A stretch of DNA of 64,000 nt from the NCBI GenBank assembly GCA_026874595.1, contig CM049306.1, positions 77,145,142 through 77,209,141 of the forward strand, read 5' to 3'. This DNA comes from Sipunculus nudus. Taxonomy: Eukaryota > Annelida > Sipuncula > Golfingiida > Sipunculidae. Below the pieces are notes generated by a model. That model made no database searches, had not been told where the DNA came from, and was given only the letters and a program-made list of their open reading frames with translations. Shown piece by piece: positions 1-50,347 of the stretch. The translations under genes and the position numbers were made by a program. The number at the start of each line of letters is the position of its first letter. Positions within the stretch are counted from its first letter, which is position 1.

Positions 1-3000
1 GTCAATATCTTATGAGCAGCGTGTCAATGCCCTGTATGCAGTATCTCAGTACCCAATGAGCAGTGTGTCAATGCCCTGTAAGCAGTATCTCAGTACCCAA
101 TGAGCAGTGTGTCAATGCCCTTTGAGCAGTGTGTCAATGCCCTATGAGGGTTGTGCCAATGCCCTATGAGCAGTATGTTAATGCCCTATGAGCGTTGTGT
201 CAATGCCTTATGAGCAGTGTGTCAATATCCCATGAGCAGTGTCAATATCCTATGAGCAGTGTGCCAATTTCCTAAGAGCAGTGTGTCAGTGCAAATGAGC
301 AGTGTGTCAATATTCTATGAGCAGTGTGTCAATATCTCATGTGCAGTGTGTGTATATCCTATGAGCAGTGTGTCAATATCCTATGAGCAGTGTGTATATA
401 TCCTATGAACAGTCTGTCAATGTCCAATGAGCAGTGTATCAATATTCTATGAGCAGTGTGTCAATATCCAATTAGCTTTGTGTCAATATCCTATGAGCAG
501 TGTGTATATATCCTATGAGCAGTGTGTATATATCCTATGAGCAGTGTGTCAATGTCCAATGAGCAGTGTATTAATATTCTATGAGCAGTATGTCAATATC
601 CAATTAGCATGGTGTCACTATCCTATGAGCAGTGTGTCAATGTCCAATGAGCAGTGTATCAATATTCTATGAGCAGTGTGTCAATATCCAATTAGCTTAG
701 TGTCAATATCCTATGAGCAGTGTGTATATATCCTATGAGCAGTGTGTCAATGTCCAATGAGCAGTGTATTAATATTCTATGAGCAGTGTGTCAATATCCA
801 ATTAGCATGGTGTCAATATCCTATGAGCAGTGTGTCAATATCCTATGAGCAGTGTGTCAATGTCCAATGAGCAATGTGTCAAATTGCTAAAAGCAGTGTG
901 TCTATATCCTTTGAGCAGTGTTGCAGAAATTTACATACTGATTATGAGCCATTCAGACCTTGATCATCATAGCAGATCACAATAAGTTAGACTCGGTGTC
1001 CATTTCAAATACTTAAGGCGATATAATTTTTTTAATATATTCGGCAAGCCCTTATCTCTGTTTTATCTGCGAACAAATCAGGAAATGCTTAGTCATAGGG
1101 CTGCAAACATATGCACTTCTTAGAGAAAATATTTGATATCTGTGACAATTAACATAGATTCTCAAAAAAATATATGAAATCTACGGATAAATTTGTGTGT
1201 GAACGCCGAAACAGCAGTGTGTGAATGCACTATGAGCAGTGCGTAAATACCCTATGAGCAATGTGTGAATGCACTATGAGCGGTGTGTGAATGCACTGTG
1301 AGCAATATTTAAATGCCCTATGAGCAGTGTGTGAAAGCACAAGAGCAGTGTGTGAATGCCCTATGAGCAGAGTGTGACTGCCGAAACAGCAGTGTATAAA
1401 TGCACTATTAGCAGTGTATGAATGCCCTAAGAGCAGTGTGTGAATGCCCTATGATCAGTATGTGAATTCACTATGAGCAGTGTGTGAATGCTCAATGAGC
1501 AGTGTATGAATGCACCATGAGCAGTGTGTGAATGCACTATGAGCAGTTTGTGAATGTACTATGTGCAATGTGTGGATGCCCTATGAGCAGTGTGTCAATG
1601 CATTATAAGCAGTATGTGAATGCCCTATGAGAAGAATGTGAATGCCCTATAAGCAGTGTATGAATGCACTATGAGCAATATTTGAATGCTCTATGAGCAG
1701 AATGAGAATGCCCTATGAGCAGTGTGTGAATGCACTATGAGCAATGTGTGAATGCACTATGAGCAGTATGTGAATGCCCTTTGGGCAGTATATGAATGAA
1801 CCATTAGCAGTGTGTGAATACCCTATGAGCAATGTCCTTTGAGCAGTGTGTGAATGCATTATGAGCAGTATTTGAATACCCTATAAGCAGTTTGTGAATG
1901 CCCTATGAGCAGTGTATGAATGCACTATGAGCAATATTTGAATGCACTAGAGCAGTGTGTGAATGCCCTATGAGCAGTGTGTGAATGCACTATGAGCAGT
2001 ATGTCAATGCCCTATAAGCAGTGTGTGAATGCCCTATGAGCAGTGTGTAAATGCACTATGAGCAGTGTGTGAATGCACTATTAGCAGTATGTGAATGCAC
2101 TATGAGCAGTGTGTCAATATTCTATTTTAATGTAGCAGTGTGTTAATGCAGTATGAGCAATATGTGAATGTTCTTTGAGCAGTATTTGAATGCCCTAAGA
2201 GCAGTGTGTCAGTGCACTATGAGCAATGTGTGAATGCCCTATGAGCAGTATGTCAATGCCCTATGAGCAGTGTATCAATGCATTATGAGCAGTATATGAA
2301 TGCCCTATAAGCAGTATGTGAATGCCCTATGAGCAGTGTGTGAATGCACCATGAGCAATATTTGAATGCTCTATGAGCAGTGTGTGAATTCCCTATAAGC
2401 AGTGTGTGAATGCCGAAACAGCAGTGTATAAATGCACTATTAGCAGTGTATGAATGCCCTAAGAGCAGTGTGTGAATGCCCTATGATCAGTGTGTGAATG
2501 AATTATGAGCAGTGTGTGAATGCCCTATGAGCAGTATGTGAATTCACTATGAGCAGTGTGTGAATGCTCAATGAGCAGTGTATGAATGCACCATGTGCAG
2601 TGTGTGAATGCACTATGAGCAGTTTGTGAATGTACTATATGCAATGTGTGGATGCCCTATGAGCAGTGTGTCAATGCATTATAAGCAGTATGTAAATGCC
2701 CTATGAGAAGAATGTGAATGCCCTATAAGCAGTGTATGAATGCACTATGAGCAGTATGTGAATACCCTAAGGGCAGTGTGTGAATGCCCTATGCGCAGTG
2801 TGTGAATGCACTATGAGCAATGTGTAAATGCACTATGAGCAGTATGTGAATGCCCTTTGGGCAGTATATGAATGAACCATTAGCAGTGTGTGAATACCCT
2901 ATGAGCAATGTCCTTTGAGCAGTGTGTGAATGCATTATGAGCAGTATTTGAATACCCTATAAGCAGTTTGTGAATGCCCTATGAGCAGTGTATGAATGCA

Positions 3001-6000
3001 CTATGAGCAATATTTGAATGCACTAGAGCAGTGTGTGAATGCACTATGAGCAGTGTGTGAATGCACTATGAGCAGTATGTCAATGCCCTATAAGCAGTGT
3101 GTGAATGCCCTATGAGCAGTGTGTCAGTGCACTATGAGCAATGTGTGAATGCCCTATGAGCAGTATGTCAATGCCCTATGAGCAGTGTATCAATGCATTA
3201 TGAGCAGTATATGAATGCCCTATAAGCAGTATGTGAATGCCCTATGAGCAGTGTGTGAATGCACCATGAGCAATATTTGAATGCTCTATGAGCAGTGTGT
3301 GAATTCCCTATAAGCAGTGTGTGAATGCCGAAACAGCAGTGTATAAATGCACTATTAGCAGTGTATGAATGCCCTAAGAGCAGTGTGTGAATGCCCTATG
3401 ATCAGTGTGTGAATGAATTATGAGCAGTGTGTGAATGCCCTATGAGCAGTATGTGAATTCACTATGAGCAGTGTGTGAATGCTCAATGAGCAGTGTATGA
3501 ATGCACCATGAGCAGTGTGTGGATGCACTATGAGCAGTTTGTGAATGTACTATGTGCAATGTGTGGATGCCCTATGAGCAGTGTGTCAATGCATTATAAG
3601 CAGTATGTGAATGCCCTATGAGAAGAATGTGAATGCCCTATGAGCAGTGTATGAATGCACTATGAGCAATATTTGAATGCTCTATGAGCAGAATGAGAAT
3701 GCCGTATGAGCAGTGTGTGAATGCACTATGAGCAATGTGTGAATGCACTATGAGCAGTATGTGAATGCCCTTTGGGCAGTATATGAATGAACCATTAGCA
3801 GTGTGTGAATACCCTATGAGCAATGTGTTAATGCCCTTTGGTCAGTGTGTGAATGCATTATGAGCAGTATTTGAATGCCCTATAAGCAGTTTGTGAATGC
3901 CCTATGAGCAGTGTATGAATGCACTATGAGCAATATTTGAATGCACTAGAGCAGTGTGTGAATGCACTATGAGCAGTGTGTGAATGCACTATGAGCAGTA
4001 TGTCAATGCCCTATAAGCAGTGTGTGAATGCCCTATGAGCATTGTGTAAATGCACTATGAGCAGTATGTGAATGCACTATTAGCAGTATGTGAATGCACT
4101 ATGAGCAGTGTGTCAATATTCTATTTTAATGTAGCAGTGTGTTAATGCAGTATGAGCAATATGTGAATGTTCTTTGAGCAGTATTTGAATGCCCTAAGAG
4201 CAGTGTGTCAGTGCACTATGAGCAACGTGTGAATGCCCTATGAGCAGTATGTCAATACCCTATGAGCAGTGTATCAATGCATCATGAGCAGTATATGAAT
4301 GCCCTATTAGCAGTATGTGAATTCCCTATGAGCAGTATGTGAATACACTATGAGCAGTGTGTCAATATTCTATTTTAATGTAGCAGTGTGTTAATGCATT
4401 ATGAGCAATATGTGAATGTCCTTTGAGCAGTATTTGAAAGCCCTAAGAGCAGTGTGTCAGTGCACTATGAGCAATATTTGAAGACTCTATGAGCAGTGTG
4501 TGAATGCCCTATGAGCAGTGTATCAATGCATTATGAGCAGTATATGAATGCCCTATAAGCAGTATGTGAATGCCCTATGAGCAGTGTGTGAACGCACTAT
4601 GAGCAGTGTGTAAATGCACTATGAGCAGTATATGAATGCCCTATAAGCAGTATGTGAATGCCCTATGAGCCGTGTGTGAATGCACCATGATCAATATTTG
4701 AATGCTCTATGAGCAGTGTGTGAATACCCTATGAGCAGTGTATCAATGCATTATGAGTAGTATATGAATGCCCTATAAGCAGTATGTGAATGCCCTGTGA
4801 GCAGTGTGTGAATGAACTATGAGCAGTGTGTGAATGCCCTATAAGCAGTGTGTGAATGCCCTATGAGCAGTGTTTGAATGCACTATGAGCAGTGTGGGAA
4901 TGCACTATTAGCAGTATGTGAATGCACTATGAGCAGTGTGTCAATATTCTATTTTAATGTAGCAGTGTGTTAATGCATTATGAGCAATATGTGAATTTCC
5001 TTTGAGCAGTATTTGAATACCCTAAGAGCAGTGTGTCAGTGCACTATGAGCAATGTGTGAATGCCCTATGAGCAGTATGTCAATGCCCTATGAGCAGTGT
5101 ATCAATGCATTATGAGCAGTATATGAATGCCCTATGGGCAGTTTGTGAATGCCCTATGAGCAGTGTGTGAATGCACCATGAGCAATATTTAAATGCTCTA
5201 TGAGCAGTGTGTGAATGCCCTATGAGCAGTGTTTGAATGCACTATGAGCAGTATGTGAATGCCCTATAAGCAGTGTGTGAATGCCCCATGAGCAGTGTGT
5301 AAATGCACTATGAGCAGTGTGTGAATGCACTATTAGCAGTATGTGAATGCACTATGAGCAGTGTGTCAATATTCTATTTTAATGTAGCAGTGTGTTAATG
5401 CATTATGAGCAATATGTGAATGTCCTTTGAGCAGTATTTGAAAGCCCTAGGAGCAGTATGTCAGTGCACTATGAGCAATGTGTGAATGCCCTATGAGCAG
5501 TATGTCAATGCCCTAAGAGCAGTGTGTCAGTGCATTATGAGCAGCATATGAATGCCCTATAAGCAATATGTGAATGCCCTATGAGCAGTATGTGAATGCA
5601 CCATGAGCAATATTTGAATGCTCTATGAGCAGTGTGTGAATGCCCTATGAGCAGTGTTTGAATGCACTATGAGCAGTATGTGAATGCCCTGTAAGCAGTG
5701 TGTGAATGCACTATGAGCAGTGTGTGAATGCCCTATGAACAGTACTTAAATTCACTATGAGCAGTGTGTGGCTGCACTATGAGCAGTGTATGAATGCACC
5801 ATGAGCAGTATGTGAATGCCCTAAGAGCAATGTGTGAATGCCCTATGAGCAGTGTGTGAATGCACTATGAGCAGTGTATGAATGCACTATGAGCAGGGTG
5901 TGAATGCACTATGAGCAGTGTATGAATGCACCATGAGCAGTATGTGAATGCCATATGTGCAGTGTGTGAATGCCCCAAGAGCAGTGTGTAAATGCCTTAT

Positions 6001-6345
6001 TAGCAGTGTGTCAGTGCCCTATGAGCCGTGTGTCAGTGTCCTATGACCAGTGTGTCAATGGCCTGTAACTAAGCAGTGTGTCAATGCCCTATGAACAGTG
6101 TGCCAATGCCCTATGAGCGTTGTGTCAATGCCATATGGGCATAGTGTCAATATCCTATAAGCAATGTGCCAATTCCCTTTGAGCAGTGTTTCAATATTCT
6201 ATTTCTATGTAGCAGTGTTTGATTACACTATGGGCAGTATGTGAATGCCCTATGAGCATTGTATGAATGCCCTATGTGCAGTGTGTTAATGCCCCTTGAG
6301 CAGTGTGTGAATGAACTTTGAGCAGGGTGTTTATTCACCCACTGC
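1..6345. repeat. Degenerate 22-bp minisatellite array with longer-range duplications
   Basis: The unit is about 22 bp, of the form CTATGAGCAGTGTGTGAATG plus two bases, repeated with frequent substitutions over the whole stretch. It starts before the left edge. Bases 1-905 favour a GTGTCAATATCC variant; later units favour GTGAATGCAC or GTGAATGCCC. Marker variants recur in blocks: CCGAAACAGCAGTGTATAAA occurs near 1381, 2413 and 3328, and a TATTCTATTTTAATGTAGCA variant recurs near 2115, 4115, 4367, 4945 and 5373, so multi-unit segments were duplicated. A stretch at about 906-1205 is not repetitive. At 6330-6360 the last unit appears inverted. Short ORFs in the array come only from the repeat and should not be called genes. 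Confidence 0.97.
906..1205. other. Non-repetitive island inside the 22-bp array
   Basis: About 300 bp of ordinary AT-rich sequence interrupts the array. I read both strands and found no lipoxygenase-like exon here, although the missing 3' exons of the adjacent gene would lie in this direction. Confidence 0.6.
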
Positions 6346-11108: not shown

Positions 11109-13764
11109 CACTGAGATATTTTCATACATTACTTTTAGAATCTTCCTTCCTCAAAAACCATTAATATAATAACTTAAGTTCAGATTTATTAGTATATACA
11201 GTATATAATCGATGATGTACTTGACAGTTTCCAAGAGGCATAATTAAAATTATTATAAGTCATATAACTACTGTCTACATTTGTGTTCCATACGACATGT
11301 GTATGATGTTCATGGTCATTCAAAATGATTTATAACCGATCTATTATTGCTGGTCCATCAAGGTGAAAAGCTTGATACATTTTATAATACTTATTTTTCA
11401 TATTTTTTATTTCCAATTTATAAATCTTATTTTCTATACAGTTAAGGGGGCGGGGTGATTACATTGATCAACCACCCCTAGAGTACCTTCTAAAAACATG
11501 GGGGATAATAATCCCCGCCATCAACTCCCAATCCCAATATGGGGAGATTATATACTGACGCCCCTGTGGCAAGAGGACGTGTTTCGGTCAAGTTTAGAGC
11601 GAACCCACGCCCAATTTATGGTATGATTAAGGCGCTCATACGGGTGAAGTATGTTTGAGTGCAAGATGTAACCATGCCACAATTTCTAACGAATACATAT
11701 AATAACAAATATGTAGATAAACAATATTAACTCTAACAGTGATAAGTATTGTAAGTAATATATCCTTAACAACCGGACTTGCCCTACGATGGATCACATT
11801 GTTTTGTTTAAATATAAAACCTCTTAGCAGCTCATGTGTCACAGTCAGAACCGTATGAATACTTGAATAAGTACGTGTGTTCTAAGCTGTACGTTACAAA
11901 GTTTTGAAAACTTATTCCGTATTACATGTTGCTTACAAGGATCATCATCATGTAAAATAAGCTGAACGCTATAACAATTAATTCTGAACATACAAACCTT
12001 TGTCTGAGGAGTTCATAAAAACCATCCCTGCCTACTGCGAAGACCGCCTCCACCCAACCATCATCGGCAAGAAGTTCCCCTAAACCTAACCTACAGAAAA
12101 ACAAGGATAAACACGGTGTTCGGTTATTCCGGTTGGCACCCACAGCTTTTACGACCCCGCTTTTTAATTTTAAAATTTTAGTTCATAAAAACCATCCTTG
12201 CCTACTGCGAAGACCGCCTCCACCCAACCATCATCGGCAAGAAGTTCCCCTAAACCTAACCTATAGAAAAACAAGGATAAACACGGTGTTCGGTTATTCC
12301 GGTTGGCACCCACAGCTTTTACGACCCCGCTTTTTAATTTTAAAATTTTAGTTCATAAAAACCATCCTTGCCTACTGCGAAGACCGCCTCCACCCAACCA
12401 TCATCGGCAAGAAGTTCCCCTAAACCTAACCTATAGAAAAACAAGGATAAACACGGTGTTCGGTTATTCCGGTTGGCACCCACAGCTTTTACGACCCCGC
12501 TTTTTAATTTTAAAATTTTAGTTCATAAAAACCATCCTTGCCTACTGCGAAGACCGCCTCCACCCAACCATCATCGGCAAGAAGTTCCCCTAAACCTAAC
12601 CTATAGAAAAACAAGGATAAACACGGTGTTCGGTTATTCCGGTTGGCATCCACAGCTTTTACGACCCCGCTTTTTAATTTTAAAATTTTAGTTCATAAAA
12701 ACCATCCTTGCCTACTGCGAAGACCGCCTCCACCCAACCATCATCGGCAAGAAGTTCCCCTACAGCTAACCTACAGAAAAACAAGGATAAACACGGTGTT
12801 CGGTTATTCCGGTTGGCACCCACAGGTTACGACCGGTTACGACCCCGCTTTTTACAGCCCATAGTATAAAATTTCGACCAGCAAACAAAAGCTGTCCTGG
12901 CGTTGGGACAGGTCGGCGCTGCGAAAATGGTCCTCTCAGGCAACCTCCGCGCAGAATAAGGTCTATTGTGCAAAAAGAAAAAAAAAAACCCTCACGGCAG
13001 TGACGGATTTTTAAGTGTTTGACCTGATATTTGACCCAGTCACCGCCTCACTCGGATGATCAGTATAAGTAAAATAACATGTGACTCTCGATCCCTTGGA
13101 AGTCATGTCTTTTGTCAGCATGCAATAATGGTTAATTCCCCAATTCATGCAGGTAATCCTTTTGCATAATCATCGTGCATTTCTTTCTTCAACAATTCTG
13201 GAACCAGTTGTATCGCGTAAACTATCCAAGGAAGCACGTGCGTAAGTTCTGTTAATATTTATAATACCGCTTCACAGATATATTACCTCGCAAAAAAGAC
13301 CCACGGGTTTATCAATATACAAAATATGCTTCACAGACAAATACCTTTTGTTAGCTAAATCTGGAATGGATGTTGTTGAAGCATAATCTTTACTTGATCC
13401 ATTAATCTACGCTTCTCAGGCGAAATGGCGCAAAAGCGTGCTGTGCGTACAAATGTGTGCATGAGATCTACCCTGGACTCTCATAGACAGATCTCATGTC
13501 AACCTCCGCATAGTGTCAAGATCTATTGAAACGATGACCTAGGACCCTGTAGGCGATCGTTCGACCAACACTGAACTTCAGCGGCCTTGACTGACATTGA
13601 CCGAGGTTGTCGGGGAAACCACTGTATAGATTCCCAGAATAAACATACGGTTATCAGTTGTGGATCCAGGAATTCGAGAAGGGGGCCGCTAAAAGTGGGT
13701 TGGCAGTTGATGTTTATTGTGAAAATGAAAACTAAATTATGCATTTAATTTTTCGTTTTGTAAA

Positions 13765-43127: not shown

Positions 43128-46100
43128 TATAAACGTCTTGCAAATTGTTGTTCTGTAATATTTTTTTAGAATAGCAAATCGAAACCTTCAATACAGATTT
43201 TTTCATTTTCATATAAACCATTTGCTGAAGTCGACAAATTACAGTAAAACCTCGCCTTGCGGTCGAAGGGACTTTCAATAAAGCTTAGACTTATACGAGG
43301 TAAACAGATTTTATAGAGTAACGAGAAATCTGCATTCCGAGGAATGCATGCATCCGCCACGTGGGCCTTCACATATTGGCCCATATTCTTAGGAACATTC
43401 GTGCATAAGTGAATATTTGTGAATATTCCTTGATGAAATTCTTGAATCCGGACCATGTGCCAGATCTACACTAAAATCTCATAGCTTCTGTACAAGCCCA
43501 TTACCGAAAATACCTGAACATTTAATAGGATTCCGATCATGACTGCGTGAGTTATATTGTGTAGAAACACACACACACACACACTCGAGTGGGAATTAAC
43601 GCATACCCTCCAAATGGAGGCGATAATTATACTTTGAACTTCGAGGACGAAACTGCGACAGAAATGTGTTATTCGATTTAAGCGAGCTCGACACAAACTG
43701 TTTTTATTATATATCGTAAAATTATTTATAAAATCTCTGAGATATTCAGAAAGGTTCGTACGTACATGATATACTTCTGTTTGCTGGGTATGTCATCCCA
43801 CCAGAGGTTTGTGTCGTCGAGTAAGAAGAATTCGTCACCAGCGGCACCGATGTACAAAATGGGCATGGTCAGGCGGTCCCGAAACGCTGCATGCCAGAAA
43901 AGGAAAGATCAATCAAAGCAAGTTTTAATAATGAGCGCGCAAAGACTGTTCAGGTACTATAGTTTAAACTTGTAAATATACTCTCAAGATTTGAATTTTA
44001 TACATAGAAGATTATAGGAGTCAGTATTTTAGGCTTGATTAATTAGTATCTCCTTTATTTATGGTAACTCCTGAAGACTGCCGTTACTTGTGACTTGTTT
44101 TTACAACGATTTATTTCGTTTGGTAGTACTGTTTCATGGTCAAATCCAGTGGCCTCAATTTATCATCCAAGGTTGGGGTTGGGGGATGACTCGCAGACAA
44201 ACAGATAAAAGAATAAGATAGAAAATAAGATATTATGTTTCCCGTATAAGTTAACTCTAAATCAGGTTTAGATATATTATTTCACATAGAAAACGCATAA
44301 ATGGAACCAAAGTCTATGATTCTATTAATAATATATTTTATTTGCAAAATATAAATTATATTCTCTGAATAGCAGGGAGATGATCATATTGACCCCCCCC
44401 CCCCCTTGTTAAAGAGGGTTCGCCTCCATCCATATATAGAAGCCCCTGGTCAAATCAGTTTGTCGTAAAAACTCTTTTATATAATTCCGATCAGCCTTTG
44501 GGTGTCCCCTTCTAAAAGAAATGTGTGAACCACAATGATTCGAAGCCGTTAACGACAAAGAATAAAAACAAAATACTAACATTATTGTATATTTTACATG
44601 TGATTCTGTAACTGTTTACCATAAGGATCAATGTAGCTGGCTAGGGTCTGTGTTAGTGGGTTGGTGAGTTCGTTAGTGATATTTGCGTAGTAGTAATCTT
44701 TAAAAGCCCAAGACCACCCGTTCAGAGACCGATAGTGTTTTTGCAGATTCTGAAATGCAAACCACATTTATAAATGAACATAAGATTTTTCATGACAGAT
44801 GATCTTTACTACGGATATGGGGTTAAAGTTCAATGGTTTTAATCGTTAACCATTCCTATTTAAACCTCATATCAAATTAGATTTGCTTTATTTGACGAAA
44901 TAATTTTAAACTTTGACATCTCTTTATACATATGAATCATTCTGTTACATTTTAGATTACCCTTTTGATATTTTATATAAATATAGAGAAAAAACATTTT
45001 GTTTAGTAATTTATATTTTTACCTCTACAAAGTTAAGAAGGCTCAAAACCTGCGGAGCCATAGCAAACACTCTGTCATCTACAGCCCCGGCCAGCCAGGT
45101 CGTCCAACCACGCTGAAATGAAACAAAAATTATCTTTGTCATTTACATGATCGATAAAATATTTATCCAGCAGATGTCTTGAAGACGGCTGAACTTCACG
45201 AACGTTTGGAGTTGAATGAAACTGATATTATATGTCATATAGAAAGTACGATTAAATGAATACTGCAGCTGTTACCATTCTTTTCGAATATTGCAATGAT
45301 TATACCAAGAAGACCCGCTACTGGAGCTTGTATTTATCAGTACAAGTACTTTTCTCATAATTTAGAATACCCTTGGTTTTAGAAAAACAAATTTCTTAAC
45401 AAAAGTGGTAAATTATTAAATCTGATTTTGAATCTTCGATAAAAGTAACATCAAAATGATATCACTTATCTTAAGGTAGGTTTACCTTAGACGGGCCGCC
45501 CAGGAAGTATTTGCTGACGTCAATATCAGCGGTTTCTTTTACGAAGCTGGTAACGGCGTCCATGGCACGGACAGCGGCCTATTAAGGTAATATTAAAAGA
45601 TTTTCATCTTCTCACAAACTCAGTTTTCTGTTAACTTACGATATTCCAAGTTTGGCAAATATGCTACCACTATATGACATAGAAACGGGCACCATGAAAA
45701 ATAACGCCCATTAAGTCATACAGGTAACGAATAGAAACCACAGATTCATTAAAAAAAAAAAGTATTATGTTTTCCTCGTTGGCAACATTTTTAAATGTAT
45801 GTGTATATGTGTGCGCAATATGCAAACAATCGTCTGTCAAAATCTGCCACTCGATACTTTCTTAACAAAGATGAAATACTGTTTGATTCAAGACTTATGT
45901 CACCATTGTTAAGAATTTAATAATTGGAGATAATAAGATAATTCTCTTAAATACCTGGGGTTTGACATCTTAGATTATATGCTTGAATTGTGATTCACCT
46001 AACAAGGCTGGTAGGGAGAAGATTCCAATAAACGTCATACCTTCGTCATTGGGAAAAGGAGAAGTACTTCCGGATCCGCACCTTTGTCTAAAACCACAAA

Positions 46101-47196
46101 CTGACGGAAGGTCCATCCAATGATGGCGTCCTCGATCCGAGAAGCGTTGGTCGGATCAGTCTGAAAAGGATTGCGTTACAGTATATTCGTATATGTTCGT
46201 AAATTCCGATAGGTCAGGCAGAGAAACTTGGCGCTCGAGTTCTCTAGTCGAGGGATACGGGGACCTAAGACCTGTCAGTCCGTCTGTAATTATGCTTTAT
46301 AATAAAATATATAAGATAGAACTTAATGCAATGCCATAAAGGTACCTGTCTCTGTTTCATGACGGCCAGGGACCCATAAATTAATTATATAAATTATTGT
46401 CAGGTGGAACTCTCATTTCTAGGGGTAACAATGCAGGTACATGTATATAGCCTGACTACCGGGATCACTTGAAGGTACCCCGCCTTAAAGGCACCAAAAC
46501 AGGCAAGGGTACAACTGTTAGTCCCAAAAATCAGGAGAAATTTGGAGAAGAAAGAGATGAATAGCTAAACGCTATAAATATTGATTAATGTAGATCAAGT
46601 TCAGCGTCAATAATGATGAATATAAGATGTTTAAATATTACTCTAATTGCCTTCTTTTGTCCAGATCACTGTCATTGGGATTGATTTTCCATAAATTTTG
46701 GTTAATTTGTTCGGGATTATTTTATTTTATACTTAATTTGCTAAATAACCGAGGAGCCATAAGGTTTCTGCTATTCTTATTTTTTTTTAATTATAAGGTA
46801 AGACTGTTACTGCCAACAAAAATTTGATATGAGAGCAGGTTAATTAGGGAAGTGGGAATTTGGTCGAAAATGCAATGTAGTGGCAATCATTGTTTTTAAA
46901 CTCATCTGAAACACAATAAAATACTTAATGGTACTATAAAATGGCGGAACTACACTGGTACCTATATGCCACCTGGTATTCACTTTTCAAGTTCATAAAC
47001 ACTTAACGGGAAGTTTGACGCATAGATATAAATTGTACTTATCTGATGACGCAAATACTCACCGCCATAATTATAGGTTGGTTAGGTACGTTCTCTAATA
47101 ACACTCCTACACTTCCGGTGTCGCGTGCAAAATCCTCTACGAAACCTACCAGGTAATTATCGTCAGGCAGGGGAGGCCTGAAAGTATCATTCATAT

Positions 47197-47239
<43 letters not shown>

Positions 47240-50200
47240 TAGATTGGATCTCAGACCACTTCAAATACTGAGTCAGTTTGGGGAGGACTCTTTATGTCTT
47301 AATTCATCAGTCTGATCACTTTCGAAATATTTCGAATCATTATCATATGAGGTTCTGGTTGACAAATCTGTTAATTACAGTAGAAAAAGAATTTGGTCCG
47401 ACGTTTTACCAGGTAACATGGTACAATGAAACTCTTAAACCCTAATGGTCGCTCGGCAGTTGCAGATAAGCATACCAATTTTCAAGGCAATCCATGCAGA
47501 GAAATTAAAGAATATTTTTCACATTTTTTATTACTTATCTTGACAATTATGACATTGCATGAGCCACAATAATACATGATGTACGTGATTTTACGTTGTT
47601 TTGTATCTCATTTCATTATATTTGTTCAACAACATTTTAAATTTTTGCTACAGATCAGATTTTCATAGAATATGTGTGGTTTTAACATTATGCTATTCCA
47701 AGTAGATATAATTATGAACGGTCGTTAGGTCGAATATTTTCTTGGTATAAATTTATATAGACTGGTGCTCCTCTAACAGCGTGCAATCAAACGCAACGCC
47801 GGGGGAGTCGGAATGAAAAACACAGCTTTATACTGGTTAACCTTTCTATATGTAACCTCGGAAGGGAATAATTTCGGTAAAAATCTCTTTTATTTTATTG
47901 ACTAATAATTTCAGTATCCTCTATCACTTGTTCATTTGCAGGACAATAATCTCATTTCTTGTGAATATACTTACGTTGCAAAACTTTCCTTACATATCTG
48001 TTCATGTCAGATTGCACACTAACCAGAATTCTCGGTATAATTTAACCAACATTTTACCAATAATCTTATTACTCACTCGTCTATGTTATCTGGCAGACCA
48101 ATACTCTCAGTACCCACTCGTCTATGTTATCTGCCAGACCAATACTCTCAGTACTCTCTCGTCTATATTATCTGCCGGCCCGATGCTGTCAGTGTTCACG
48201 CGTCTATGTTATCTGCTAGTCCAATACTCTCAGTACTAATCCGTCTTTGTTATCTGCCAGACCAATACTCTCAGTATAAACACGTTTATTTTATCTGCCA
48301 GACCAATACTCTGAGTACTCACTCGTCTCTGTTATCTGGCAGACCAATAGTCTGAGTACTCACTCGTCTATGTTATCTACCAGACCAAGGCTCCGAGTAC
48401 TCACTCGTCTATGTTATCTGGCAGACCAATACTCTGAGTACTCACTAATCTTTGTTATCTGCCAGACCAATACTCTCAGTACTTACCCGTCTATGTTATC
48501 TGCCAGACCAATACTCTTAGTACTCACTCGTCTTTGTTATCCTGCGGACCAATATTCTTAGTACTCACTTGTCTTTGTTATCAAGCAGATCAATACTCTG
48601 AGTACTCACTCGCCTATGTTATTTGTCAGAGCAATTCTCTCAGTACTCACTCGTCTATGTTATCTGCCGCACCAATACTCTCATTACTAACACGCCTATG
48701 TTATCTGTAAGAGCAATACCCTGAGTACTCACTCGTCTTTGTTATCTTTCAGACCAATACTCTCAGTACTCACTCATCTTTGTTATCTTTCAGACCAATA
48801 CTCTCAGTACTCACTCGTCTTTGTTATCTGTCAAGCCAATACTCTAATTACTTACTCGTCTTTATTACCTTTCAGACCAATACTCTGAGTATACTCACTC
48901 GTCTTTGATATCTGTCAGACTTAAACTCTCAGTACTCACTCGTCTATGTTATCTGGCAGACCAATACTCTGAGTACTCACTCGTCTATTTTACCTGCCAG
49001 ACCAATAAAATTATTACTCACTCGTCTATGTTATCTGCCAGACCGATCAACATGAAAGCGGCCTCGGGATGGTCACCGGGAACGTCAGGGATTACCACTG
49101 TCATGTAGTGCCACCACACCGGCCAGTTAGACACGGTCTCTGTTGATAAATCTCTAATTATTAAACTACTCGCATAACTCAACACTTAAGCCTTTTTCTA
49201 AATATTCCGTACCTTTCAGGCTTTAAAATAGGTGGCCAAGAATATACATTATAATTCTAGTGAAAGAGGTAAGAGGATCAGGTTGAAACATTGTGCAGTA
49301 ATAATGTATATAATTATTTATAAATAATACCCATTAACACTGTATGATTAACACTAACGTTATTCCCGTTCGCAATTGGTATAGAACGTATTATGCTGTG
49401 ACCATCCAGTAACTTAATTGTAATCGATTCATCCAACGTTGGTATTATGTTGAGAAGGAGAAATAATCCACGTCTTTAGTACAAATTAAGCTCATGTAAG
49501 CCAACATTTTGAGAAAATATGATAGAAAGATAGCATAATTATCGTCACAGATTCTCAAAACCGTTCACAATCGTAAGGCTTAGTGCATAACATACACACG
49601 AAAAGCTATCATCCCTGGTGATAAAAATGCTCAAATCATAAAAAAATTACGTACCGTCCTTCCAACGTTGTGACGTCATATTGAGAACGTAGGTGGTGAT
49701 GCCACCCGGTCTGACGTAGGTTTCTAACAAAGTATATCCATACTCAGGGTCTATTCTCCTCACATACTCGTCTAAGGGCGTATTCCGATCCTTGAGAGTA
49801 TGAAGAGAAGTAAAGAAGATATCGATACTGAGTTTACGACATATCAGACTTTGTGATACATTAGATTAAGATTTGAACAGGAGAGTGTGCATTAGGCAAA
49901 TAAAGTATGGTTCTAAAGGCACCGCCCTCGTCAATTTTTACCCCCTCCCCCCTCCACCAAAACTTTTTATTTTGATTTTCATCTTCCTTTAAAGGAGTTC
50001 CTTTATAATCTATTGCTTTTGCCTGTTTAGCAAATATTTCTGTTATTATCATGCTTTTTCCTGATCATATGACATTTTTATCGAAACATACATAAACAGG
50101 TAAAGCAAAAATCGCCCGCCCGCTTGATTTTTTTAAAGTGCCTGATAAATATACCTTTCATTTGCCTTACTTAAACCAAAACATAGGGCGCCCGCCGTGG

Positions 50201-50347
50201 TTGTCTCTGGTTCATTTACTCGATTATATACATAATTATGGTGTTAGGCATCACTTAAAATCTTTCCCCATTTCATTGTGATATTAAATTTACCTGACTG
50301 AAGACGGCTCCAGCAAGAAAGACAACGGTAAGGAATCGCCAGACCAT
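40411..50347 (-). CDS. AprA-like / PhoPQ-activated pathogenicity-related family secreted protein, 15 exons, complete
   Basis: Exons in gene order: 50294-50347, 49655-49790, 49022-49139, 47063-47177, 46041-46160, 45486-45578, 45023-45112, 44620-44749, 43766-43886, 42970-43057, 42636-42674, 42145-42233, 41544-41637, 41095-41160, 40411-40533. They join in frame to 491 residues. The ATG has a perfect CCACCATGG context, and MVWRFLTVVFLAGAVFSQ is a signal peptide, so the product is probably secreted. Family landmarks are TPLDEYVRRIDPEYGY, WPVWWHYMTVVIPD, GGPSKRGWTTWLAGAVDDRV and LPNAQHTMLPFHEEIF. A Ser (GGPSKRG), Asp (GAAGDEFF) and His (NAQHTM) sit where an alpha/beta-hydrolase triad is expected. 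The family includes bacterial PqaA and Dictyostelium AprA, a secreted proliferation repressor; the animal role is not established. The C-terminal ~100 residues are more variable and look beta-rich. Confidence 0.94.
40658..40724. repeat. (TA)n microsatellite
   Basis: TA repeat in the last intron of the AprA-like gene; the 110-codon minus-strand ORF through it is an artefact plus exon 15. Confidence 0.97.
43076..43121. repeat. (TA)n microsatellite close to a splice acceptor
   Basis: TA tract in AprA intron 9, about 18 bp upstream (in gene orientation) of the exon 10 acceptor. Confidence 0.97.
43244..43701. mobile_element. Possible pogo-like element
   Basis: The left end CAGTAAAACCTCGCCTTGCG is preceded by TA, and the complement of the right end is CAGTTTGTGTCGAGCTCGC. 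Only the first four bases and scattered CG steps match, so the pairing is weak. It resembles the 13826-15023 element. Confidence 0.35.
45023..45112 (-). CDS. AprA-like exon 7, following the predicted nucleophile elbow
   Basis: It begins RGWTTWLAGAVDDRVFAMAP and follows exon 6, which ends FLGGPSK, so the presumed catalytic Ser lies next to the exon 6/7 splice junction. Confidence 0.9.
47199..47236. repeat. (TA)n microsatellite
   Basis: TA tract about 20 bp upstream, in gene orientation, of the AprA exon 4 acceptor. Confidence 0.95.
48068..49037. repeat. 41-bp minisatellite, ~23 copies, seeded from the AprA exon 3 end and its splice donor
   Basis: On the minus strand each 41-bp unit reads GGTCTGGCAGATAACATAGA, then CGA|GTGAGTACTGAGAGTATT. 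The first 23 bases are the last 23 of exon 3 (encoding GLADNIDE) and the following GTGAGTA is its donor; the array begins at the authentic donor at 49021. Units differ at a few positions, mostly transitions, and the CGAGTGAGTA junction is kept in most. The plus-strand ORFs over the array (repeats of MLS-RPILSV-TRLCYL) are artefacts of three cycling frames. Confidence 0.97.
49022..49139 (-). CDS. AprA-like exon 3, whose 3' end seeds a minisatellite
   Basis: It reads ETVSNWPVWWHYMTVVIPD, then VPGDHPEAAFMLIGLADNID and part of E. It ends in phase 2 at GACGA|GTGAGT and joins exon 4 to give NIDEPPLPDDNYLVG. If the donor were skipped, the next codon would be TGA. Confidence 0.93.
49899..50157. mobile_element. 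Family B inverted-repeat element
   Basis: The left end is AAAGTATGGTTCTAAAGGCA, with the core TGATCATATGACATTTTTAT, and the right end AATCGCCCGCCCGCTTGATT, then AAGTGCCTGATAAATATACC. It sits in the first AprA intron. Confidence 0.85.

Follow-up and report, generated by a model that had tools for sequence, protein, structure and literature searches.

The window (the whole stretch of 64,000 nucleotides of Sipunculus nudus DNA analysed here) contains a minus-strand gene of the PF10142 PhoPQ_related (AprA-like) family, the third intron of which opens with a minisatellite made of the end of the preceding exon and its splice donor; the question raised by this locus is whether such a row of donors tunes the splicing of the gene, as proposed in a first-pass annotation, or is ordinary repeat growth that the gene tolerates. 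The exon boundaries were set by hand using splice sites and reading frame: Exons 1 to 4 possess canonical splice sites and are consistent in phase on joining. The coding part of exon 1 (50294..50347; all features of the gene on the minus strand) starts with ATG, is signal-peptide-like by eye and ends at the donor CAG/GTAAAT (the slash marks the exon-intron boundary); exon 2 (49655..49790, donor GACG/GTACGT) was placed by hand with the help of paralog exon alignment; exon 3 (49022..49139), the seed of the array, ends with ...GLADNIDE in phase 2 and is based, like exon 4 (PPLPDDNYLVGF...; 47063..47177, donor GCG/GTGAGT), on PF10142 and paralog alignment; intron 3 (47178..49021) comprises 1844 bp and has the acceptor TTTCAG. 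One additional exon piece of the gene (45023..45115) was listed in the genome-wide PF10142 search. The profile matched exons 3 and 4 together with an E value of 1.1e-6 and the piece at 45023-45115 with 8.6e-10, both above the curated cut-off, and downstream pieces of the gene align with a PF10142 protein. The family is large in this genome (50 matches with E <= 0.001); two of the 50 are uninterrupted frames on small contigs (C114:38314-39462 and C128:76962-78170, 518 and 550 amino acids, respectively; fetched parts with a G+C of 0.52 and 0.48), and these are possibly bacterial contigs within the assembly.

The 41-bp array was located by TRF at 48056-49044 (24.1 copies), and the unit-by-unit alignment along the minus strand revealed 24 units extending from 49044 to 48059, with the result that the array end first annotated at 48068 has to be moved to 48059. 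Unit 1 combines the final 23 nt of exon 3 with the genuine donor CGA/GTGAGTA, whereas units 2-24 are situated inside intron 3; the unit is made up of 23 exonic and 18 intronic bases. The array is thus indeed built on an exon end and its donor, i.e. tandem units with the 5' splice site consensus that start at a real exon 3' end. The annotated number of about 23 decoy donors holds as far as 23 further copies are present, of which 21 keep the GT, 17 read GTRAGT and 12 are identical at positions -3..+6, but the GTRAGT consensus is absent from six of the 23. Likewise, the description as near-perfect copies applies to units 3, 16, 17, 23 and 24, which differ from the exon copy by one base over 23+7 nt, but none of the 23 downstream units is identical to it over this length. 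The exon side of the genuine donor is non-consensus (-2G, -1A), and its predicted U1 pairing (-7.3 kcal/mol; calculated with the U1 5' end sequence) compares with -14.0 kcal/mol for a consensus site, -7.1 for 13 of the 23 decoys and -12.8 for unit 14 (CGG/GTAAGTAC). Read-through past the genuine donor gives ...GLADNIDE directly followed by TGA, in agreement with the first-pass annotation. An assignment of the units to recursive splice sites (AG/GT ratchet points) was rejected, the consensus unit CGA/GTGAGT having no pyrimidine tract.

A two-unit query against the 1.43-Gb genome gave 13 matches among the best-scoring candidates, all of them at C1:77193200-77194188, i.e. in the AprA-like array; a dispersed satellite merely resembling the exon was rejected, the unit being seen at this locus only among these candidates. 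Exon 3 was recognised in 12 of 15 fetched paralog loci (not in L034-L036), and the intron 3 donor, placed by eye, was found at the matching position and in phase 2 in all 12, L022 also reading AACGA/GTGAGT. No TRF array spans the exon 3/intron 3 junction in any of these 12 paralogs. Based on the common intron position and phase of the paralogs without junction array, the exon end predates the array; together with the restriction of the unit to the AprA-like locus, this argues that the exon seeded the array. The origin of the array from the exon 3 end and its donor, apparently at the AprA-like locus itself, is therefore supported. The first and the last unit are mutual closest relatives and have a common AATAA..TTATT intron flank that is absent from the interior units, as expected if the interior units were amplified and the edges left behind. 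Unrelated repeats occur farther downstream in some paralogs, e.g. between exons 3 and 4 of L031 (144 bp x 2.5), and about 700 nt behind exon 3 of another paralog there is a 91-bp array unrelated to the donor (L024:6554-7593; 11.4 copies, 97%); no exon 4 was located in the latter paralog. The window is dense in tandem repeats, with 44 TRF rows (some overlapping, dinucleotide runs included). Positions 1-6330 hold 6.3 kb of a tandemly repeated 22-bp unit whose higher-order periods are 44/66 bp, and positions 12010-12825 are occupied by a 170-bp unit (4.8 copies, 98% match); in three of these copies, the minus strand is open over about 60 codons.

The regulatory proposal bears on the donor columns of the array. 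The mean pairwise difference between the 23 intronic units was 0.185 over all columns, 0.189 over the donor (-3..+6) and 0.163 over +1..+6, and the nine-column donor window ranked 24th of 41 equal windows for conservation. No sign of selection keeping or destroying donors was seen in the 23 intronic units, except at the two GT columns, which are less variable (0.087 versus the unit average of 0.185) and count against a neutral reading. The stop that follows extension of exon 3 is a by-product and points to no special design, since a phase-2 intron starting with GTRA always reads NNG TRA on extension; an instant stop is present in 9 of the 12 paralogs (not in L028, L031 and L033). Given the donor columns, the by-product stop and the similar arrays at exon ends of other genes (8 of 26 arrays, see below), the claim that the array tunes productive splicing was not upheld: A regulatory role of the AprA-like array is possible but unsupported.

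The first-pass annotation had suggested a search of the genome for other minisatellites seeded by 5' splice sites, and such arrays were found. The search pattern of three AG/GTRAGT octamers at 18-48 bp spacing gave 1560 matches; among the matches listed (covering C1, C2 and C3 up to 16.4 Mb), 26 distinct arrays were present, the flanks of which were all fetched. For each array, 300 nt ahead of the first donor were translated (221 nt for L043), and the longest open stretch of at least 20 amino acids reaching the donor was scanned against Pfam; 21 of the 26 arrays qualified, whereas five had no such stretch. Six of the 21 showed Pfam matches below 0.01: MIP (L051, 5.7e-13), LRR_8 (L058, 6.8e-15) and MAS20 (L060, 7.1e-13), as well as ABC_membrane (L046, 4.5e-6), cNMP_binding (L048, 0.0016) and Arv1 (L057, 0.0013), the latter three short of the Pfam curated cut-off. 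The G-gamma match of L049 (E exactly 0.01) was regarded as chance. Among three second-choice peptides picked by eye and scanned, that of L044 gave a weak PH match (0.016), and those of L037 and L055 had no Pfam match. Control segments 700-1000 nt upstream, taken for 23 of the 26 arrays, yielded one match below 0.01 and two more at 0.01-0.05. The single match below 0.01 was a NudE exon in L047, and the pre-array peptide of this locus (DLRQELAIQ...) probably continues it as the next exon of such a gene. In total, a start at an exon end is supported for 8 of the 26 donor-bearing arrays, L044 being the weakest case. Others (such as L037, L039, L042, L049, L052, L054 and L055) looked exon-end-like by eye and were not counted, no convincing family match having been obtained; a PDB search with the L042 peptide gave no match either.

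Five of the eight supported arrays have units divisible by 3 in length, a share above one third that speaks against a neutral reading but has a P of about 0.09 by our own binomial sum; a stop is reached in six of the eight. L046 and L047 are stop-free over the 60 residues examined; with their 42-bp units, later donors could thus add 14-residue repeats. In a longer stretch of L046 (L064; C2:8512500-8514500), an ABC-transporter exon end is part of a 42-bp array with about 42 copies (82% match), the first copies of which continue in frame; the units resemble recursive splice sites because of the pyrimidine-rich tract ahead of CAG/GTAAGT. Compared over 38+8 nt, every later donor copy in this stretch departs from the exon copy at more than two positions.

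The cNMP_binding match of L048 belongs to the PKA regulatory subunit type I (phmmer E 1.1e-25 in a search of solved structures, with the alignment reaching the final residue before the donor). Downstream come 11 more AG/GTRAGT donors; over 30+8 nt, one of them is identical to the exon copy and none has more than two mismatches to it. At C2:33363400-33365900 (L063), six near-identical copies of the exon end and donor are succeeded about 510 bp on by a second block of five. The next exon, located with a protein fragment, lies 2.1 kb downstream, is preceded by TTTTCAG and joins in frame from the first donor. All 11 later donors are positioned between these two exons, seven of them would shift the frame, and read-through meets a stop after 13 residues, ahead of 10 of the 11. 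PKA regulatory subunit I is essential. As use of any but the first donor would disable this core gene, the first donor is presumably the one chosen there.

The abundance of such arrays was compared with that of control octamers. At 18-48 bp spacing, the donor octamer gave 1560 array matches, the reversed octamer 947, the permuted octamer 827 and the permuted-reversed octamer 1945, and at 48-78 bp spacing, donor and reversed octamer gave 2066 versus 1202; long arrays contribute most of these matches, and donors do not stand out. A genome-wide excess of donor-bearing arrays is not convincing, the 1560 donor matches falling within the control range of 827-1945. The listed places of the reversed octamer reach C1:7.57 Mb, and distinct arrays were compared between the donor and the permuted octamer: Among the matches listed on C1 and C2, there were 18 versus 13. 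The donor arrays are thus about as frequent as those of the permuted octamer, and ordinary minisatellite growth can explain them. In a 212.5-kb sample, single donor octamers numbered 10 (13.3 expected from composition) and reversed ones 27; with fewer single occurrences than the reversed octamer yet more array matches, the donor octamer may form arrays more often per occurrence, and some excess of donor arrays is possible, although the sample is small. By our own extrapolation, 26 arrays in about 226 Mb correspond to roughly 160 genome-wide. If minisatellites can arise at any place, a sizeable share of those holding the octamer would be located at real donors, as many such octamers are donors.

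The first-pass annotation knew of no standard feature type for the array, but this does not hold, as a human minisatellite with multiple splice donors is already in print: in IFI6 (6-16, G1P3; Turri, Cuin and Porter 1995, Nucleic Acids Res 23:1854, as cited in PMC4526556), two downstream repeat units are said in the citing account to serve as donors. Common to IFI6 and the AprA-like gene is that minisatellite units supply splice donors. The IFI6 units are reportedly 12 bp long and add residues in frame, whereas the AprA-like unit of 41 bp is not a multiple of 3 and extension meets TGA at once. Moreover, the use of later donors is reported for IFI6 in that account, whereas the AprA-like array is known from genomic sequence. 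In human duplicated genes, internal tandem repeats located where exons and introns meet, with 27 intron modifications described (PMC2812944), are likewise minisatellite expansions at such boundaries, for which a change of splicing is reported; according to the description given there, they vary between human paralogs and have transcript support, whereas here a single assembly is considered and the donor is inside the unit. Intronic tandem repeats have been linked to splicing in TERT (VNTR6-1, PMC11830802) and in C. elegans (CeRep25B, PMC4039745), where they are near regulated splicing events; unlike the AprA-like units, those of VNTR6-1 and CeRep25B are not described, in the passages cited, as copies of an exon's own end and donor. 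A literature search covering few subscription journals listed no account of donor-seeded arrays recurring as a class within a single genome. The AprA-like array belongs to a kind that recurs in this genome and has a printed precedent in human IFI6.

Taken together, the array is best explained, with a probability of about 75%, as tolerated ordinary repeat expansion in which the 5'-most donor is used and which lacks a dedicated regulatory function, although some leakage is possible. The array would have started with a tandem duplication spanning the end of exon 3 and the start of intron 3 (23 exonic and 18 intronic bases), and ordinary repeat expansion would then have yielded the 24-unit minisatellite, the first copy continuing to serve as exon end and real donor while growth proceeded downstream within the intron. 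Tolerance would result from a spliceosome that in most cases commits to the 5'-most donor, either during synthesis of the exon or through exon definition; if a later donor were used, the reading frame would be shortened and the mRNA probably degraded. The predicted higher donor strength of unit 14 compared with the genuine site speaks against this explanation, and in classical experiments with duplicated identical donors, the intron-proximal copy is reportedly preferred, the opposite of what these genes need. The choice between two neighbouring donors can be shifted by SRSF1 bound just upstream of them, as stated in PMC5585400.

Among the alternatives, a regulatory device, in which donor competition would send a share of the transcripts, tunable by copy number and sequence, to early stop and decay, retains some appeal through the 17 GTRAGT decoys (12 identical at -3..+6), the stronger prediction for unit 14, the immediate stop on extension and the use of downstream units in the printed IFI6 case as recounted in PMC4526556; it is nevertheless unlikely in view of donor columns without extra conservation, of 12 out of 12 paralogs with exon 3 but no junction array, and of a like architecture in unrelated genes at about the frequency of permuted-octamer arrays. 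Rather less likely still, the row of U1 sites might help the gene by recruiting U1 to the intron start and thereby strengthen a weak donor or block premature polyadenylation, against which U1 is protective: The non-consensus exon side and modest pairing of the genuine donor (about half the consensus energy) and the 17 of 23 GTRAGT copies would suit such a role, but the donor columns show no selection and the paralogs do without the array. That the gene is decaying or its exon model wrong, which would render the donors irrelevant, is very improbable, as the hand-placed boundaries give consistent phases and canonical splice sites over exons 1-4, and both the PF10142 matches and the alignment of the downstream pieces point to a genuine family member.

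Beyond the tolerated expansion at the AprA-like locus, a wider and more tentative proposal, which we consider possible but somewhat doubtful, holds that minisatellites seeded by exon ends and their donors have arisen repeatedly in this genome, affecting at least tens of genes and among them core ones (PKA regulatory subunit I, TOM20-like, NudE-like), that the 5'-most of a dozen near-identical donors is picked, and that the growth of each array determines a small leak, different from gene to gene, into truncated products or, where the units are 42 bp long, into products bearing repeats. Should the first donor indeed be the one used, these introns show that the spliceosome can choose among locally near-indistinguishable donors by position or order of synthesis alone. 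The choice among equal donors is a long-standing splice-site question, to which RNA from Sipunculus nudus could give a direct answer; indeed, such RNA would be informative because first-donor use would run counter to the intron-proximal preference reported for duplicated donors. Furthermore, introns of this kind constitute ready material for asking whether length variants of minisatellites alter gene output.
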